Of a DNA stretch of 64,000 bases, positions 8,024 to 64,000 are shown piece after piece (within the stretch, counting starts at the first letter, position 1; every line of letters starts with the position of its first letter). The translations under genes and the position numbers were made by a program. The notes below the pieces were generated by a model, which was not told the origin of the DNA, ran no database searches, and was given only the letters and a program-made list of their open reading frames with translations. The stretch is from a virus: positions 1 to 64,000 of IMG/VR virus record IMGVR_UViG_3300043313_001099, one strand, 5' to 3'.

Positions 8024-8064
8024 TTGACACGAGGTTGACCGAGAGGTAATCTGGTGTCAGTAAG
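8024..8064 (+). promoter_or_regulatory. promoter a of the repeated TTGACA/TAAC family
   Basis: -35 TTGACA at 8024-8029, 17-bp spacer beginning CGAGGTT, -10 TAATCT at 8047-8052, then 7 nt and GTAAG at 8060. It drives the 88-residue gene at 8091. Confidence 0.8.
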
Positions 8065-26777: not shown

Positions 26778-29011
26778 CTCAGTACCTCCCCGTTCCGGTC
26801 GGCCAGGCTGGCGGTGCTGCGCGGGGCCAGTCGCGGCCCGGGGCGGGAGACGGCGGCAGGGTTGCCGCGCCCCGCCGGGAGAGGAGACCCTGCTGGTACC
26901 ACCCGTGCTCGAGCACTGAGCTGTCCGGCGGCGTGGACCTGTGACAGCGCGACGAGTACCGGCACCGACGCCACGGCCAGGGTGAGGCTGCTGGCGGCTG
27001 CGCCGGCCGCGCCCCGGATGACCGTGCCACCAGCCCCGGCGGTGACTCCGGCGGTGAGGGCGGCGTCGGCCGGCCGGACCGGCGTGGAGCCAGCGGTCAG
27101 CGCGGTGCCGGCGGCCAGGGTGCTGCCCGTGATGGCGACCCGACCGGCCGCGCCAGTGAGGGCGTGTCCAGCGGCGAGGTCCGCCGCGCTGACCACTATG
27201 CGGCGACCGGCCGCGTCCAGGAGACCGGACGCGGCGAGCCCCGAACCGGCTGGAGCCACCCGGCCGCCGGCCGCCGCGAGGGTGCCGGCGGCGAGGAGCC
27301 CGGCCGCGCCCCCCACCACTACCCCGGTGCTGGCGGCGGCAAGGAGCCCGGAAGTGGCCAGGGCGGAGCCGGAGGTGACGAGGCGGAGCCCGGTACCGGC
27401 CAGGGCTCCGCCGGCCAGGAGTTCGGCATCGGCATCGGCCACGCCGGCGCGGGGGATGCTGGCCGAGGCCAGGAGGTGCCCGGCCGTATCCAGTGTCGCC
27501 GTGGCGACAAACAGGTGTGTGCCGGAGCAGTCCAGGGTGGCGGCGGCGGCGAGGGCGGCGTCGGCCACCTTGACGGCCACGGCCGCACCGGACAGGGCGG
27601 CGGCGGCGGACAGGGCGGCGGTGCTGCCGGAGAGTACCCGCGTAGCCGCCCCGTTCAGTGTCCCCAGCGCGTCCAGGGCGGATGAAGCCTGCCCGACCGG
27701 GGTTCCGGTAGGGGTGAGGGTTGCGGCAGCGTCCAGGGCCACCGTGGGGGCGGCGACCCGGAGCGCTGTGGCGCTGCTGGTTCCGGAAGCGGCCAGGGCG
27801 GAGCCGGTCACGGCAACAGGGAGCGCGGCGGAGGAGAGGGAGCCGGCGGCCGTCAGGGCGGACCCGGCCGGGTGGACCGGCGTACCGGCGGCGGAGGCCG
27901 TGCCTCCGGCGGCCAGTGCGGCGGAGGCGGCACGTACCGCAGCGCTGGCGGCGGAGAGCGTACCGGCGGCGATCTGCGCCGACGCCGCAACCGCAACGCC
28001 GGTGCCGGTACCGGACAGGGCGGCAGCGGCCGTCAGGCTGGACACGGCCACCTTGACCGGCGTGCTGGCGGCGGAGAGGGCCTGTGCGGCGGCCAGCGCG
28101 GCGGCGGCTTTCGCCACCCCGGTACCGGCGGCGGCGAGGGAGGCGGCGGAGGACAGGGCGGACGCGGCCACGGCGACCGGCAGGCCGGCAGCGGCCGTGG
28201 TCCCGGCGGCGGTGAGCGCCGAGGTCGGGAACTGGACCAGGCTGCCTGTGGTCGTGAGGGTCTCGTCGGCGGTCAGGGCGGACGCCCCGATGGCGACCTC
28301 CGTACCGGGCCCGTCCACTCCTCCGGCGGCGACGAGGGCCACGCTTGCAGCGGCAACCGCGACCGGCCCCGGGTACCCGGTGTCGGTGACCACGAAGTCG
28401 TCCATCCACCAGGTCGGCACGGAGGCGAGGGCGGCGATCTGGCCGAACTGGATGCCGCCGATCTGCGTGGTGCCGAAGTTGCCGGAGGCCACCGTGACGG
28501 TCTCCGTGGGCGTGCTCGCGGAGTCCATCGTGGACCAGAGCTTCATCTCGGCGGTGCCGGTGGTTCCGATGGTGCAGAAACCCTCCAGCCGGTACCAGCT
28601 TGACACCGCAAACGCCGTGGTGCTGTTGCCGACCGGGTTGTTGTCGGCCTGCCGGATCTGGAGGATGCGGCCGGTGGTCCACGCCCATCGCATGATCTGG
28701 AGGCCGGCCGAGGTAACCAGCCGGCCCCCTGAGAACGCCGTGGAGAAGCTGGCGGGGGTACGCACGTAGACCCGGAAGTAGACCGTATTGAGGACGGAGA
28801 ACGTCCACGCCACGAACGCCTGCACGGCGCTGGCCCCGGTGGCCACCTTGATGGAGACGGTGCCGTGGGCGGACTGTGCGGAGTCGGACGCCAGGGTTGC
28901 GCCGGAGCCGGCCTGCACGTCGTTGAAGGCGTCGAAGCTGGCTCCGCCCGAGTTGCCGATGGATACGGGGGTGCCGGAGGAGATCCCCTCGACGGTGTTG
29001 GTCAGCCTCAT
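26774..29011 (-). CDS. large virion protein with about 24 tandem ~20-residue repeats
   Basis: A 745-residue protein. The first ~210 residues are a concanavalin-like beta domain (SFDAFNDVQAGSG, VSSWYRLEGF, PTWWMDDFVVTDTGYPG). Residues ~215-700 are about 24 repeats of 19-23 residues, each beginning with a Val-rich strand and containing SALTAAGTLSAAGTP-like Ala/Thr/Ser/Gly sequence. The C-terminus is basic. It lies between head genes and connectors, so a capsid or connector fibre/decoration role is likely. Ala-rich repeats of fixed length suggest a solenoid or fibrous stalk with an N-terminal carbohydrate-binding module. I know no named family with this exact architecture. Confidence 0.75.
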   Translation of the reverse strand: MRLTNTVEGISSGTPVSIGNSGGASFDAFNDVQAGSGATLASDSAQSAHGTVSIKVATGASAVQAFVAWTFSVLNTVYFRVYVRTPASFSTAFSGGRLVTSAGLQIMRWAWTTGRILQIRQADNNPVGNSTTAFAVSSWYRLEGFCTIGTTGTAEMKLWSTMDSASTPTETVTVASGNFGTTQIGGIQFGQIAALASVPTWWMDDFVVTDTGYPGPVAVAAASVALVAAGGVDGPGTEVAIGASALTADETLTTTGSLVQFPTSALTAAGTTAAAGLPVAVAASALSSAASLAAAGTGVAKAAAALAAAQALSAASTPVKVAVSSLTAAAALSGTGTGVAVAASAQIAAGTLSAASAAVRAASAALAAGGTASAAGTPVHPAGSALTAAGSLSSAALPVAVTGSALAASGTSSATALRVAAPTVALDAAATLTPTGTPVGQASSALDALGTLNGAATRVLSGSTAALSAAAALSGAAVAVKVADAALAAAATLDCSGTHLFVATATLDTAGHLLASASIPRAGVADADAELLAGGALAGTGLRLVTSGSALATSGLLAAASTGVVVGGAAGLLAAGTLAAAGGRVAPAGSGLAASGLLDAAGRRIVVSAADLAAGHALTGAAGRVAITGSTLAAGTALTAGSTPVRPADAALTAGVTAGAGGTVIRGAAGAAASSLTLAVASVPVLVALSQVHAAGQLSARARVVPAGSPLPAGRGNPAAVSRPGPRLAPRSTASLADRNGEVLR

Positions 29012-40694: not shown

Positions 40695-40865
40695 TGTCGG
40701 GGGATGGAAGTGTGGGCGCGGGCTGCCGGACTCCCCGAGGGGGTCAGGTCTGAGCTCCGCGCAGTAGCGGGCGTCCGACTCGAACGGCGTTTCCGGGTGC
40801 ATGATCCCGGCGTGGTTCCACTCCACTACGCCCGCGCTGGACCGGCAGAGGCCGGCCCGGGTCGA

Positions 40866-42239: not shown

Positions 42240-42824
42240 TTAGCCCTTTACCGCCTCGGCGCGGCCCAGTGCGCGGTAGACCGTGGAGCGAGCCACCCCG
42301 AACAACTCCGCAAGATCCGTCGATGTGTGTGCCCCCTCCTCGTGGAGCTTGACGAGGTGCGCCTCCTGTGCGGGGTTCAGCTTGGGGCGCTTCCCCCGCA
42401 GCCTCCCCTTGGAGCGGGCCACAGCCATCCCCTCCCGGGTGCGGAGCCGGATGAGGTCGAGCTCGAACTCCGCGAAGGTGGCCAGGATGTTGAAGAACAT
42501 CTTGCCCATGGGGTCGGCCGGGTCGTAGATGGAGCCTCCGAGGGAGAGTCGGACGCCCCGGGCGGTGAGGGAGTCTCCGATGTCGCGGGCGTCCGGTACG
42601 GAGCGGGCCAGGCGGTCCAGCTTGGGCACGACGAGGGTGTCTCCGGCGCGGCAGGCGGCGAGCGCTTCGCGGAGGCCGGGGCGTTCGCGGTTGGCTCCGG
42701 TGAGTCCGTGGTCGAGGTAGATGCGCTCCGCGTCCACGCCGAGCGCAGTGAGGGCGTCTCGCTGAGCGGTGAGGTCCTGTTCGTCGGTGGAGCATCGGGC
42801 GTACCCGATGAGAAGTCCGGCCAT
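42240..42824 (-). CDS. resolvase/invertase-type small serine recombinase
   Basis: A 194-residue protein with the GYARCSTDEQDL nucleophile motif (Ser12), DHGLTGANRERPGL and KLDRLARSVPD conserved blocks, a long E-helix (MGKMFFNILATFAEFELDLI) and a Hin-like C-terminal HTH (about 148-188). It could resolve plasmid multimers or invert a segment. The ATG at 42824 is chosen over a longer start because it lies about 7 bp after a TACACT -10-like element, predicting a leaderless mRNA. It is the only recombinase in the window. Confidence 0.88.
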   Translation of the reverse strand: MAGLLIGYARCSTDEQDLTAQRDALTALGVDAERIYLDHGLTGANRERPGLREALAACRAGDTLVVPKLDRLARSVPDARDIGDSLTARGVRLSLGGSIYDPADPMGKMFFNILATFAEFELDLIRLRTREGMAVARSKGRLRGKRPKLNPAQEAHLVKLHEEGAHTSTDLAELFGVARSTVYRALGRAEAVKG

Positions 42825-43753: not shown

Positions 43754-44246
43754 GGGGGCGGTCCTTCCTCGTAGGGCTGTTGTACCGGGGCGGGCTGGTC
43801 GGGTAGATGTCCCGGCCGGTGGCGCGGGCGGCCCGCTCCACGATCCGGGCGGCGTGGTCCTCCCCTTCGCCCGGGGGCACCAGGGGGATGTTGAAGGGCG
43901 GCGTACCGAGGAGGGTGACGAGGACCTCTCCCGGGTTGACCTGTGTGGAGATGTTGGGCGGCAGGGTGCGCTGCTGGCTGGAGTTGGCGGCGTACAGGGC
44001 GTCGGAGAGGAGGAGGCAGGGCGCGGCGGCAGTCCGCACGGTACGGAGGCCGTGGCCGTAGCGGGGACGGTCAAGGCGGAGCGCCTCCTCCCATCCGTTC
44101 AGGGGCTCCCGGAGGGTGCGGAGGATGCCGCGCTGGAGGCAGTCGTGGAAGCCGGCCACCTGGACGAGGGAGGGGCCGGCGAGTAGGAAGTACTGCACCG
44201 TCCACCAGTCGGCGGCGGTAGCGGCCTCCCAGGTGCCGTCGCTCAT
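43746..44246 (-). CDS. hypothetical protein, accessory operon
   Basis: A 166-residue protein (WWTVQYFLLAGPSLVQVAGF, LLGTPPFNIPLVPPGEGEDH). It overlaps the upstream gene by 4 bp. No domain is recognised. Confidence 0.68.
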   Translation of the reverse strand: MSDGTWEAATAADWWTVQYFLLAGPSLVQVAGFHDCLQRGILRTLREPLNGWEEALRLDRPRYGHGLRTVRTAAAPCLLLSDALYAANSSQQRTLPPNISTQVNPGEVLVTLLGTPPFNIPLVPPGEGEDHAARIVERAARATGRDIYPTSPPRYNSPTRKDRPRV

Positions 44247-44680
44247 GAGCCGGCACCGGCCCGGCGGGCCAGGGCGGCGGCGGCGAGGAGGGAGCGGCCG
44301 GCGTCCCGGGCTTCCGCTGCGGAGAGGGCAACCGGGTGCCCCCCGGCTGCGGTGTCCAGGTGGATGTGGTCGCCGTGCAGGCGGTAGTTCAGCACTCCGC
44401 CCTGGACCATCATGTCCATGCTGTACCCCTCGTAGTCCGTGAGATCACCGACCTGAGTGCCGGGCCCGACGCCGAGGTGCGCCCGGAAGGCGGCCAGGTC
44501 CTCCGCGAGCTCCTCGGCAGCGGCGGCACAGGCCAGGCCGGCGGCCATGACCACATCCAGGTCCGGGTAGTCCTCGGCGTGGTTGTACGCATCCGCGAGC
44601 TCCCGGAGGGCGGCGATGCGGGCGGCGACGTTGCCGCTCTGCGGCGGGGGCGGGGCGGGGCGAGTGTTGTTGCTGGTCAT
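44243..44680 (-). CDS. hypothetical protein downstream of iteron cluster A
   Basis: A 145-residue helical protein with a Pro-rich N-terminus and a beta tract (GGVLNYRLHGDHIHLD). ATG 44680 is preceded by GAGGAG; longer in-frame starts would run through iteron cluster A. Its promoter/leader region contains that cluster 22 bp upstream. Confidence 0.68.
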   Translation of the reverse strand: MTSNNTRPAPPPPQSGNVAARIAALRELADAYNHAEDYPDLDVVMAAGLACAAAAEELAEDLAAFRAHLGVGPGTQVGDLTDYEGYSMDMMVQGGVLNYRLHGDHIHLDTAAGGHPVALSAAEARDAGRSLLAAAALARRAGAGS

Positions 44681-44701: not shown

Positions 44702-44751
44702 ATGGCAATTTGCCATCGGTTTGCTATCCGCTTGCCATCGGGTTTGCTACG
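44702..44751 (+). repeat. iteron cluster A: 15-bp palindrome plus 11-bp-pitched repeats
   Basis: ATGGCAATTTGCCAT at 44702-44716, then TTGCCATC-type units starting at 44710, 44721 (TTGCTATC), 44732 and 44744 (TTGCTACG). Spacing is 11, 11 and 12 bp. The last unit covers the TAG stop of the neighbouring - strand gene. Confidence 0.85.
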
Positions 44752-44944
44752 CGCCGGTCTGTCCGACTGTGGGCCAGGTGATCCACGGGCTGATCGGCCG
44801 GGGCGGGAGGGTGGTACGGACCCACAGAGGTTCGCGGGGGGCGTCGCCGGCCTCGATCCGTTCGGCCAGCTCAGCAAGGGTGCGTGCTTGCAGAGGAGCC
44901 GCGCGGTATGGCAATTTGCCATCGCCTTGCCATGTGGTTGTCAT
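44747..44944 (-). CDS. small hypothetical protein between iteron clusters
   Basis: A 65-residue protein with LAELAERIEAGDAPREPLWV and a Pro-rich end. ATG 44944 overlaps the previous stop (ATGA), but the first 15 codons coincide with iteron cluster B, so a downstream non-ATG start is possible. Function unknown. Confidence 0.45.
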   Translation of the reverse strand: MTTTWQGDGKLPYRAAPLQARTLAELAERIEAGDAPREPLWVRTTLPPRPISPWITWPTVGQTGA

Positions 44945-44956
44945 TGCCTTGCCATC
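44908..44956 (+). repeat. iteron cluster B
   Basis: Palindrome ATGGCAATTTGCCAT at 44908-44922; units at 44916 (TTGCCATC), 44927 (TTGCCATG), 44938 (TTGTCATT) and 44949 (TTGCCATC), exactly 11 bp apart. It overlaps the end of the 147-residue gene. Confidence 0.85.
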
Positions 44957-46109: not shown

Positions 46110-46367
46110 ATGACGAGGATGCTGCGGGTCTCTGCCGACACCCATGAGAGGCTGCTCTCGCTGGTCCGGGCCGAGTACCCGGGCCGGACCGTGAACGATG
46201 TGCTCGGCGTGCTCCTCGATGAGCATTGGGAGCGGCAGGCCATCTTGGCTGTGGACTCCACGTCGGACGCCGAATGGGAGGGATGGCGGGCCGAGATGCG
46301 TGACCTTGACCGGCTCGGTAGCCCCGACGTTGACCCGTGGGTCCACTCCACGGAGCAGGCCGCGTGA
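46110..46367 (+). CDS. antitoxin of a MazEF/PemIK-type pair
   Basis: An 85-residue protein with a ribbon-helix-helix-like N-terminus (MLRVSADTHERLLSLVRAEY, then a second helix) and an acidic, Trp-rich C-terminus expected to wrap the toxin. GTGA coupling to the MazF-like gene. The palindrome upstream suggests autoregulation. Confidence 0.78.
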   Translation: MTRMLRVSADTHERLLSLVRAEYPGRTVNDVLGVLLDEHWERQAILAVDSTSDAEWEGWRAEMRDLDRLGSPDVDPWVHSTEQAA

Positions 46368-46699
46368 TCCCCGATCCGTGGACCGTGTGGTGGGCCGACC
46401 TCGACCCGACAGAAGGGCACGAGCAGGGTGGGCACCGGCCGGTCGTGGTGATCTCCTCCCCGCTGCATGTCCGCCTCACCCGGGGAGAGCTGGTCACGGT
46501 CGCGCCGATCACCAGCCGCGACCGGCCGACCTGGCTGCACCGGGTACCCGTCGTCACGCCCCGGGGAACCTCGTACGTGGTAGCCGAGCAGCTCCGCAGC
46601 ATCGCGGTTGCCCGGTTGGGTGACCGGCCAGCCTGGCGGCTCACCCCGCACGAGGCGGCGGCGGTACGGCAGGTCCTCCGGCGCATGGTGGACTTCTGA
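46364..46699 (+). CDS. mazF: MazF/PemK-family endoribonuclease toxin
   Basis: A 111-residue protein with WWADLDPTEGHEQGGHRPVV, the conserved MazF opening, and VAPITSRDRPTW and VVAEQLRSI motifs. MazF toxins cleave mRNA when the antitoxin is lost. The pair sits on the + strand inside a - strand operon, like an inserted addiction cassette that would stabilise the element as a plasmid. Confidence 0.88.
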   Translation: MIPDPWTVWWADLDPTEGHEQGGHRPVVVISSPLHVRLTRGELVTVAPITSRDRPTWLHRVPVVTPRGTSYVVAEQLRSIAVARLGDRPAWRLTPHEAAAVRQVLRRMVDF

Positions 46700-51700: not shown

Positions 51701-51742
51701 CTTACGTCTACTAGGTTACTCCTCGGCTAGACGTAGTGTCAA
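51701..51742 (-). promoter_or_regulatory. promoter e of the repeated family
   Basis: On the - strand: TTGACA (51742-51737), 18-bp spacer (CTACGTCTAG... rather than CGAGGTTA), TAACCT (51718-51713), 7 nt, GTAAG (51705-51701). Confidence 0.8.
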
Positions 51743-55966: not shown

Positions 55967-56224
55967 CTACTCGCGTACCGGAGACCTATGCGTGCAGGTC
56001 TTGAGCATCAGCGGGTACCAGATCCGGCTGTACGTGTCGTGGTCCACGAGGCGAACCTCGATGCCGGCGCGGAATGCCTCCAGGCGCTCGGCACGAGTCC
56101 CGTACATCTGGTTCCAGGCTGCCGCCTCGTCACGGCAGGAGCGGGTGCGCTCCCTGACGGCGGTAGGGCAGCCACACTTCTTGACGAACACGAACTGCTT
56201 GCGCTGGGCCTGGGTGCGATCCAT
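55967..56224 (-). CDS. conserved small actinobacterial/phage protein
   Basis: An 85-residue protein with KKCGCPTAV near residue 15-23 and a C-terminal YPLMLKTCTH, a pattern (KCGCP...YP.M...C.H) common to a family of small actinophage and host proteins. Iteron cluster C lies 26 bp upstream of the ATG. Function unknown. Confidence 0.72.
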   Translation of the reverse strand: MDRTQAQRKQFVFVKKCGCPTAVRERTRSCRDEAAAWNQMYGTRAERLEAFRAGIEVRLVDHDTYSRIWYPLMLKTCTHRSPVRE

Positions 56225-56249: not shown

Positions 56250-56298
56250 ATGGCAATTTGCCATCGTCTTGCCATTGTCTTGCCATCTGGTTGCTACG
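56250..56298 (+). repeat. iteron cluster C
   Basis: Palindrome ATGGCAATTTGCCAT at 56250-56264; units at 56258, 56269, 56280 and 56291 (TTGCTACG), 11 bp apart. The last unit covers the TAG stop of the upstream - strand gene, as in cluster A. Confidence 0.87.
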
Positions 56299-62151: not shown

Positions 62152-62490
62152 ATGGAGATCATCACCGGCAGTACCCCGCTCACGGACGAGGAGGCGGGGG
62201 AGCTCCACCACGTCATGTACCGGATGCCAATGGGGGCGGTCGGCGTCGACCTGGCCCGGCTCCAGCCCACAACCGCGCGTCCGGTCACGGCGGCCGACGT
62301 CGTTCACGTCCTCAACCAGTTGCGGAACGAGGCAACCGCCTTCGTCTCCTCCGCGACCACCTGCCGCGACGAGGTGAAGTGGTGGCGGGACTGGTACCGC
62401 CGGCAGGTGGAGGCCGGCATCCAGTTGCCGGAGATGCCCCTGCTCGGCAGCGAGCCGCCGCCCCCGGCCGACGACGAGGTGGCGCGGTGA
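62152..62490 (+). CDS. hypothetical protein
   Basis: A 112-residue protein with a helical N-terminus, TAADVVHVLNQLRNEATAFV and an aromatic segment (KWWRDWYRRQVEAG). AGGAGG precedes ATG. It overlaps the next gene by GTGA. Confidence 0.68.
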   Translation: MEIITGSTPLTDEEAGELHHVMYRMPMGAVGVDLARLQPTTARPVTAADVVHVLNQLRNEATAFVSSATTCRDEVKWWRDWYRRQVEAGIQLPEMPLLGSEPPPPADDEVAR

Positions 62491-62687
62491 AGATCAGCGT
62501 GCCACTGGTCATCGAGGTCGACCCCCGCGAGTGGAACTGCGGCGAGTTCGCCGGCCTGACCGGTCGGGAGCTGGCCGAGGCTGTGCGCGAGGACGTGCGC
62601 CGGTACGTGGAGTACTCGGTGCAGGGCCTGAACCTCCTGAGCGAGGCGGACGCCCGGGTCAACCGGGTCCGCGTCCGGGGGCGCTGA
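62487..62687 (+). CDS. small hypothetical protein
   Basis: A 66-residue protein (GTG 62487) with ISVPLVIEVDPREWNCGEFA and a helix (AVREDVRRYVEYSVQ). It closes the operon before a terminator. Confidence 0.64.
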   Translation: MKISVPLVIEVDPREWNCGEFAGLTGRELAEAVREDVRRYVEYSVQGLNLLSEADARVNRVRVRGR

Positions 62688-62709
62688 GGCTCTCTCCAAC
62701 CGCTCTGCA

Positions 62710-62740
62710 ACGCCCCGTCAGGCCCCGGCCGGCGGGGCGT
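62710..62740 (+). terminator. hairpin at the end of the 60.9-62.7 kb operon
   Basis: ACGCCCCG (62710-62717) pairs with CGGGGCGT (62733-62740), loop 15 nt. Confidence 0.7.
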
Positions 62741-62813
62741 CCTGCTGTCTCCCCGGGAGGGGTTCGCCCGATGGCAAAATTCCGGCGCGGCACCCCCTCT
62801 GACCTGGGATGGA

Positions 62814-62880
62814 ATGGCAATTTGCTATCGGGTTGATGGCAACGCTATGGCAGGCATTATGGCAAACGTGTTTTGCCATT
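62814..62880. repeat. iteron cluster D, mixed orientation
   Basis: Palindrome-like ATGGCAATTTGCTAT at 62814-62828, then ATGGCA units starting at 62836, 62847 and 62859, and TTTTGCCATT at 62871-62880. ATGGCAA also occurs at 62771. Pitch is 11-12 bp or twice that. It lies in a non-coding region. Confidence 0.8.
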
Positions 62881-62988
62881 CGGTTAAATACAGGTTCGCG
62901 CCCTACCGATCGACACATGCCTAGACAGGTATAAGTGATTGCCGTCACAGGTGTCATGGTTTCCGCAGGTCAGAGGGCCTATCAGGGC

Positions 62989-63050
62989 ATGGCAATTTGC
63001 CATCGTCTTGCCATCCGGTTGATAGCAAAGCGATGGCAAGTCATAGCGAT
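62989..63050. repeat. iteron cluster E
   Basis: Palindrome ATGGCAATTTGCCAT at 62989-63003; TTGCCATC-type units at 62997, 63008 and 63019 (TTGATAGC), then inverted units ATAGCAA at 63022, ATGGCAA at 63033 and ATAGCGA at 63044, all 11 bp apart. The surrounding 62870-63110 sequence is visibly richer in A and T than the rest of the window. Confidence 0.83.
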
Positions 63051-63117
63051 TACCCATACCTATTAAGTACAAAGTCAAAGGCATTATTCGTCCGGCCTGT
63101 CGGCCAGACACTCCCCT

Positions 63118-63157
63118 TTGACACTGGCGAACCTCTCCGGTAACGTCGTATGCGTAA
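63118..63157 (+). promoter_or_regulatory. promoter k of the repeated family
   Basis: TTGACA (63118-63123), 17-bp spacer, TAACGT (63141-63146), 7 nt, GTAAG (63154). CGTATG...CATACG surrounds the start point. Confidence 0.78.
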
Positions 63158-63188
63158 GCCATACGACTGACTGAGGAGAGTGCCTCGT

Positions 63189-64000
63189 ATGACCCTTCAC
63201 GACGCCGGTAGCGCCCCGACCGCGCCGGCCGCCCCCGCCCCCCGGGGAAGCCTGACCATCCGTCACAACCACGCTGAGGGCACGCTGCTGGAGGGCTCCT
63301 CCCGGGGAGACGGCGTACTGGAGCTGACCCGGCAGCACGGCTTCCGCTGGTTCCGCAGCCTCGGGCTGCTCGGAATCCCGTTCAGCCGGGACCACGCCGC
63401 CCGCCGCCGGAACATCGAGGCCGCCGCCGCCGCCCTCCGCAGCGCCGGATTCGAGGTCGCCGTCGAGATCGATGACCGGCCGCGCCCCCGCGCCGAGGCC
63501 CTGGCCGACCAGTCCGGCCGGTTGGACGACCGACACGAGCGGCTGACGACGGCCGCCGCCAGGCACTCCGCCGCCTCGGACGCTCACCGCAACCGGGCCG
63601 ACCAGGCGGGCGAGCGGTTCTACATGGGCCAGCCCATCCTGGAGGGCCACCACTCGGAGCGGAGCGCCCTCGCCGCCCGGGCAAGGATGCACGCCGCCGA
63701 CCGCCTGGCCCGCGTCGAGGCCGACGCTGCCGCGTACCGGGCTGAGCAGGCCGGGGTGGTCGGGCGGAGGGCTGCGCGGGCAGCCACCCCGGAGGCAACC
63801 GCCCGCCGGATCCTGGCGACGGAGACCGAGCTCCGCGATTTGAACCGGCGTCTGGCGGCCCTCAGTGCCCCGCAGGGCGTTGAACTCGCCCCGGCGGGGA
63901 GCCTGTACCGGGAGGAGCTTCTGGCGCGCCGTGCGGTGGCCGAGGAGCGCCTCGCCCACGACCGGGCAGAGCTGGACCGGGCCGAGGCCGCCGGCCGGTA
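63189..64000 (+). CDS. DUF3560-family protein, 3' truncated by window edge
   Basis: The first 270 residues are visible. A conserved beta-hairpin/WR motif opens the protein (HNHAEGTLLEGSSRGDGVLE, FRWFRSLGLLGIPFSRD), then DDRPRP and a coiled-coil region containing MGQPILEGHHSERSALAARA, all signatures of DUF3560, a family abundant on Streptomyces plasmids. GAGGAG precedes ATG 63189. It may be a nucleic-acid-associated protein; no function is established. Confidence 0.88.
   Translation, partial: MTLHDAGSAPTAPAAPAPRGSLTIRHNHAEGTLLEGSSRGDGVLELTRQHGFRWFRSLGLLGIPFSRDHAARRRNIEAAAAALRSAGFEVAVEIDDRPRPRAEALADQSGRLDDRHERLTTAAARHSAASDAHRNRADQAGERFYMGQPILEGHHSERSALAARARMHAADRLARVEADAAAYRAEQAGVVGRRAARAATPEATARRILATETELRDLNRRLAALSAPQGVELAPAGSLYREELLARRAVAEERLAHDRAELDRAEAAGR

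Follow-up and report, generated by a model that had tools for sequence, protein, structure and literature searches.

Positions 62988 to 63088 of the phage DNA analyzed here (a window of 64,000 nt, which is bases 1–64000 of a 75,461-bp IMG/VR virus record with a mean GC content of 0.706) are likely to form a replication origin, in which an initiator-bound iteron array (O2) would act with a melting element at 63049–63088 and a loader, the other arrays of the genome being further binding sites. In the proposed mechanism, the product of 73176–74027 would bind the six-unit array at 62988–63048, the bound initiator would melt the adjoining AT-rich 63049–63088, and the DnaC-like loader encoded at 74024–74869 would next place the replicative helicase. 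In relatives the array lies inside the initiator gene, whereas in this phage about 10 kb separate the two and the array occupies non-coding DNA; the remaining arrays would be more initiator-binding sites, with an auxiliary, late-origin, fork-pause, or regulatory role. We infer the protein–DNA binding, melting, initiation, and role of the other arrays from sequence. What began as a guess from raw sequence, an AT-rich iteron region proposed as an origin or centromere, is now a specific proposal that can be tested, with the initiator, loader, site layout, and melting element all named.

Exact ATGGCAA/TTGCCAT units occur nine times in 62741–63117, where 2000 local dinucleotide shuffles averaged 0.14 and never gave more than 4; the whole window has 25 (2.2 expected). 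As the sequence-only reading had described, they form two clusters with inverted units, O1 (62814–62879) and O2 (62989–63048). O2 has the layout ATGGCAA-T-TTGCCAT-4-TTGCCAT-7-ATAGCAA-4-ATGGCAA-3-ATAGC. The elements of the region are as follows.

62771–62777, minus strand: single outlying half-site TTGCCAT, matrix score 18.6
62795–62806 (CCCTCTGACCTG) and 62966–62977 (CAGGTCAGAGGG), no strand: 12-bp perfect inverted pair, with one arm left of each array
62814–62879, plus strand: second iteron array O1, units partly inverted, probably auxiliary, 61-bp model score 18.8
62988–63048, plus strand: main iteron array O2, gapless 61-bp match to the in-gene arrays of seven relatives
63049–63088, no strand: probable DNA unwinding element, least stable 40-bp window of the record

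Between O1 and O2 (62889–62972), CAGGT is found four times within about 80 bp. A literature search with the 15-mer returned no paper.

A 61-column matrix was built from the in-gene arrays of seven relatives, with this phage left out of the build. The matrix aligned without gaps at 62988 with a score of 64.9, while relatives that had been left out scored 74 to 89. The next places in the genome scored 18.8 (62813), 16.5 (44907), 9.4 (56249), and 9.0 (44701), and the best score on 30 random genomes was 7.4. A nearest-neighbor stability profile, in which position 63049 was not chosen beforehand, showed that no 40-bp segment of the 75.5-kb record is thermodynamically weaker than 63049–63088, directly right of O2; for windows of 60 bp and 100 bp, the stability minimum of the whole record starts at 63032 and 62989, respectively. 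The gap is AT-rich, as had been claimed, and the GC content of 62791–63090 (0.50) is the lowest for any 300 bp in the record. It is also non-coding: 62688–63188 holds no gene in our calls, and two overlapping ORFs lack coding-type GC3. All gene boundaries are rough calls made in this analysis, and by these calls the gap ranks fifth in length, not first as the sequence-only reading had it.

The record encodes tailed-phage proteins (tape measure, head maturation protease, portal, terminase large subunit, and ParB-like-domain genes) and, for replication, an SSB, a helicase, and the following two products beyond the window.

73176–74027 of the record, plus strand: winged-helix O-like/DnaD-like initiator, assigned by PHROG replication families
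74024–74869 of the record, plus strand: DnaC-like loader (PHROG DnaC-like phrog_50, E 5e-28)

The terminase is nearest to that of Brevibacterium phage LuckyBarnes (57% identity), followed by Arthrobacter phages; no close relative of the record itself was found. The N-terminal domain of the initiator nests within the clade that bears the motif (100/99 node). Its branch is long (1.39), so the specificity of the initiator could have drifted. AlphaFold2 predicted the N-terminal fold confidently (pLDDT mostly 84–96 for residues 11–130), and the best PDB matches of the model in Foldseek were winged-helix proteins, all weak (best E 0.075, none reaching 0.05). The C-terminal domain is common to the motif-bearing L012 and L111 and to Streptomyces phage replication initiation proteins. 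No half-site is present within the initiator gene at 73176–74027.

The link between arrays and this initiator family came from scanning 2.9 million viral contigs and 84,980 prokaryote species for the exact pattern. A palindrome with at least two nearby half-sites in the viral contigs was always inside one initiator gene family, except in contig G011. Three of the five prokaryote-genome matches were the same initiator gene, and the other two were Helicobacter Sel1-repeat genes carrying the palindrome or array by chance, which were set aside as coincidence, as were the lone palindromes (L094, L095, L099, L100, L102, L104–L108, and L110). The family members with in-gene arrays are IMG/VR contigs (L007–L012, L096–L098, L101, and L111) and Paractinoplanes ferrugineus (L071); the phage group concerned is also seen in actinomycete genomes. 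When the whole records of six array-bearing relatives were searched, no array was found outside the initiator gene. The gene product carries MxW(G/A)RxDDxFDDHPKV and belongs to PHROG "replication initiation", with some members O-like or DnaD-like. The motif is present in L103, yet this sequence is long-branched and not part of the clade; it is absent from named phages that have only the C-terminal domain in common. Because the in-gene half-sites use all codon frames, and GC3 is 0.33 to 0.50 inside the half-sites versus 0.55 to 0.86 outside, selection acts on the DNA of these arrays; a protein-level cause of the motif (a DGNLPS peptide) was rejected on the same two observations. Arrays of this in-gene kind recall lambda, with its origin iterons in gene O, and the oriL of SPP1 in gene 38.

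The array of this phage resembles these in-gene arrays in half-site, 61-bp layout, and homologous initiator. It differs from them in its surroundings: theirs are all in a coding linker, most with (CCCN)n, whereas O2 has an AT-rich stretch and a non-coding gap. With its array outside a coding gene, this phage lets the role of the DNA be told apart from the needs of the protein sequence, which is impossible with in-gene origins. This phage is probably not the only one whose array is displaced from the initiator gene. G011 (150 kb, IMG/VR) has a single intergenic array of a simpler type at 27713 (L090, 7714–7774) and an initiator homolog (L113) at 124413–125285 (E 4e-25), around which no half-site was found in 3.9 kb. 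The origin half of the sequence-only reading is supported by the in-gene arrays of relatives, by an encoded initiator of that clade, and by the weakest-melting DNA adjoining the best array. GC skew turns near 10.5 and 60 kb, following gene orientation, and is uninformative for the origin because it tracks that orientation.

ATGGCAA/TTGCCAT arrays missed by the sequence-only reading were also found at 44.70, 44.91, and 56.25 kb.

44702–44750, plus strand: array A1, palindrome and direct repeats about 11 bp apart, 61-bp model score 9.0
44908–44955, plus strand: array A2, palindrome and direct 11-bp repeats, 61-bp model score 16.5
56250–56297, plus strand: array A3, palindrome and direct 11-bp repeats, 61-bp model score 9.4

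In A1 to A3, direct repeats spaced 11 to 12 bp apart come after a 15-bp palindrome, whereas in O1 and O2 the units that come next are inverted; A1 to A3 have neither the convergent half nor a weak flank. Judged by their sequence, O1, A1, A2, and A3 are probably extra initiator-binding sites, and O1 probably assists O2. For A1 to A3, a regulatory role is conceivable, as is one in fork pausing or as late origins, which has been proposed for SPP1 oriR. Five arrays in one genome weigh against a single origin at 62988–63088, as the origin could be at 44.7–44.96 kb or multiple. It is possible, though rather doubtful, that the main origin would be another array or that several origins would be used, for example, A1 and A2 (44.68–44.96 kb) early and 62.99 kb late. 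The pairing of A1 and A2 within a 260-bp gap would fit this, as would SPP1, which has two origins about 13 kb apart with one initiator binding both (PMC6316719), but A1 to A3 score 9 to 16.5 against 64.9 with the 61-bp model, lacking the convergent half, and have GC-richer flanks (gap GC 0.66). Extra arrays could alternatively be decoys, sequestering the initiator when a related phage co-infects the cell, in line with the block of lambda by ectopic lambda origins (PMC4488673). We regard such a function as very improbable: the phage's own initiator would be titrated too.

Downstream of the gap, as the sequence-only reading had stated, is a DUF3560 gene with a promoter-like sequence.

63118–63146, plus strand: promoter-like sequence TTGACAC-N16-TAACGT ahead of the DUF3560 gene; the record has 13 sites of this kind
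63189–64000, plus strand, continuing to 64604 in the record: DUF3560 gene (PF12083), a neighbor and not an initiator

Pfam PF12083 was matched with E 1.8e-11 from the start at 63189. As a candidate initiator, the product was rejected: it matched no replication family, tblastn against INPHARED phages returned no match, and a viral-contig scan gave no confirmed relative. DUF3560 relatives are found on actinobacterial plasmids. The promoter proposed for this gene stood in part, in that its pattern recurs 13 times in the record, but a strict sigma-70 scan was empty. The TTGACAC-N15-17-TA sites lie mostly about 60 to 75 bp 5′ of early genes.

Window, plus strand: TTGACAC-N15-17-TA sites at 8024, 8431, 40146, 60873, and 63118
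Window, minus strand: TTGACAC-N15-17-TA sites at 51742, 52783, 58208, 59313, and 59848
Record beyond the window, plus strand: TTGACAC-N15-17-TA sites at 64665, 67878, and 73103

Seven of the 13 begin with TTGACACGAGGT, and the spacer common to these sites may be an operator. The terminator proposed on the left of the gap is likewise partly retained: a GC-rich hairpin is present at about 62707–62745 (–31.8 kcal/mol for 61 nt), but with a z of –1.3 and no T-run it is weak. Scanning 62400–63400 with tools for sigma-70 promoters and intrinsic terminators gave none.

These signals bear on whether the arrays are operators, through which the initiator or another phage DNA-binding protein would repress or time several promoters, the pair at 62.8–63.0 kb regulating the DUF3560 gene. 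Two arrays end close upstream of minus-strand genes, A1 at 21 bp from 44243–44680 and A3 at 25 bp from 55967–56224, and the arrays are dispersed through the genome, a distribution that phage repressor sites can also show. Nevertheless, none of the five arrays overlaps any of the 13 promoter-like sites of the TTGACAC-N15-17-TA type, O2 retains the full convergent layout, the arrays of relatives are found mid-gene in coding sequence and not at a promoter, and the weak AT-rich element would be superfluous for an operator. We therefore consider an operator function improbable.

A further reading, which had been offered together with the origin, is that the phage is a phage-plasmid and the arrays are its centromere (parS). 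The 75.5-kb record yielded no tyrosine integrase and no large serine recombinase, and genes for a small serine resolvase, a PemK toxin, and ParB-like domains are compatible with extrachromosomal life. However, a search for the ParA-type ATPase family (PF13614) found none in the record, the ParB-like genes adjoin the terminase 23 kb away, and the arrays go with the initiator family, not with a partition family. The centromere half of the reading is not supported, and such a role is highly unlikely.

In iteron plasmids and P1 (oriR and incA), short phased repeat arrays are present at the origin and away from it. The present phage differs in that no plasmid-type Rep lies beside the arrays and the initiator is of the phage O/DnaD type. 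The theta-origin ingredients named by the sequence-only reading, iterons and AT-rich DNA, are present here; the candidate is of a phage-initiator type, not a plasmid Rep type, and is narrower, at about 62988–63088.

Among phages, SPP1 of Bacillus (initiator gp38, loader gp39) offers a parallel to the proposed origin. Its origins consist of repeats and an AT-rich unwinding element, with oriL inside initiator gene 38 and oriR intergenic about 13 kb off, both served by a single initiator (PMC6316719). Repeats with an AT-rich element and an intergenic array far from the initiator gene are shared, but the initiator gene here has no sites at all, the iteron sequence and initiator family differ, and there are five arrays. 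In lambda, the iterons of ori lie in gene O and are followed on the right by an AT-rich stretch of about 40 bp (PMC4488673). The weak AT-rich stretch directly after the iterons and an O-like initiator with a helicase loader are similar here. By contrast, the array is 10 kb from the initiator gene, and its half-sites are 7 bp long and spaced about 11 bp apart, whereas the lambda iterons measure 19 bp.

In the relatives, (CCCN)n tracts were observed on the coding strand just past the iterons; 62700–63200 of this phage contains no such tract. This C-tract came to light through a generic, noisy test of initiator genes for 8-mer repeats. The observation covers initiator genes L007–L011, L016–L061, L071, L096, L103, and L111. 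In the wider family (GC 0.41–0.74), a strict (CCCN1-4)n tract was present on the coding strand of 30 of 47 initiator genes and on the other strand of one. Control ORFs from the same loci had it in 4 of 196 cases (Fisher 4e-22, a value that overstates independence because kin were not down-weighted), and synonymous-codon shuffling gave 5.9 tract-bearing genes on average versus the 30 observed. The encoded peptides vary (SHSHTQSQ, PTPTPNP, QPNPTQPN, and RPVPSRPV). Judging from its sequence, the tract is a strand-specific, quadruplex/i-motif-capable element in the initiator-gene linker. We tentatively suggest that a large phage group may combine in-gene iterons with a (CCCN1-4)n tract whose complement would form a G-quadruplex for strand opening or fork loading, and that in the present phage the AT-rich element would replace the tract after the iterons left the gene. 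The comparison brings out a tract in phage initiator genes that is strand-specific and quadruplex-capable and for which we found no earlier description; in a literature search, which was not exhaustive, titles and abstracts did not describe such tracts. A G-tract such as GGGGAACAGGGGAACAGGGGAACAGGGG occurs inside the initiator gene of Ididsumtinwong (L067), Bantam (L068), and Alderaan (L070), which have another N-terminus.

Several other features of the record were observed. The small serine resolvase/invertase gene is at 42243–42824, and the PemK/MazF-type toxin gene at 46110–46696 has a small gene upstream that probably encodes an antitoxin. ARAGORN reported a tRNA-like gene at 40766–40835 with an undetermined anticodon (catg). 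The first approximately 70 bp of the record (1–70) recur at about 75210–75280 and diverge after, which suggests a terminal overlap or an assembly edge.
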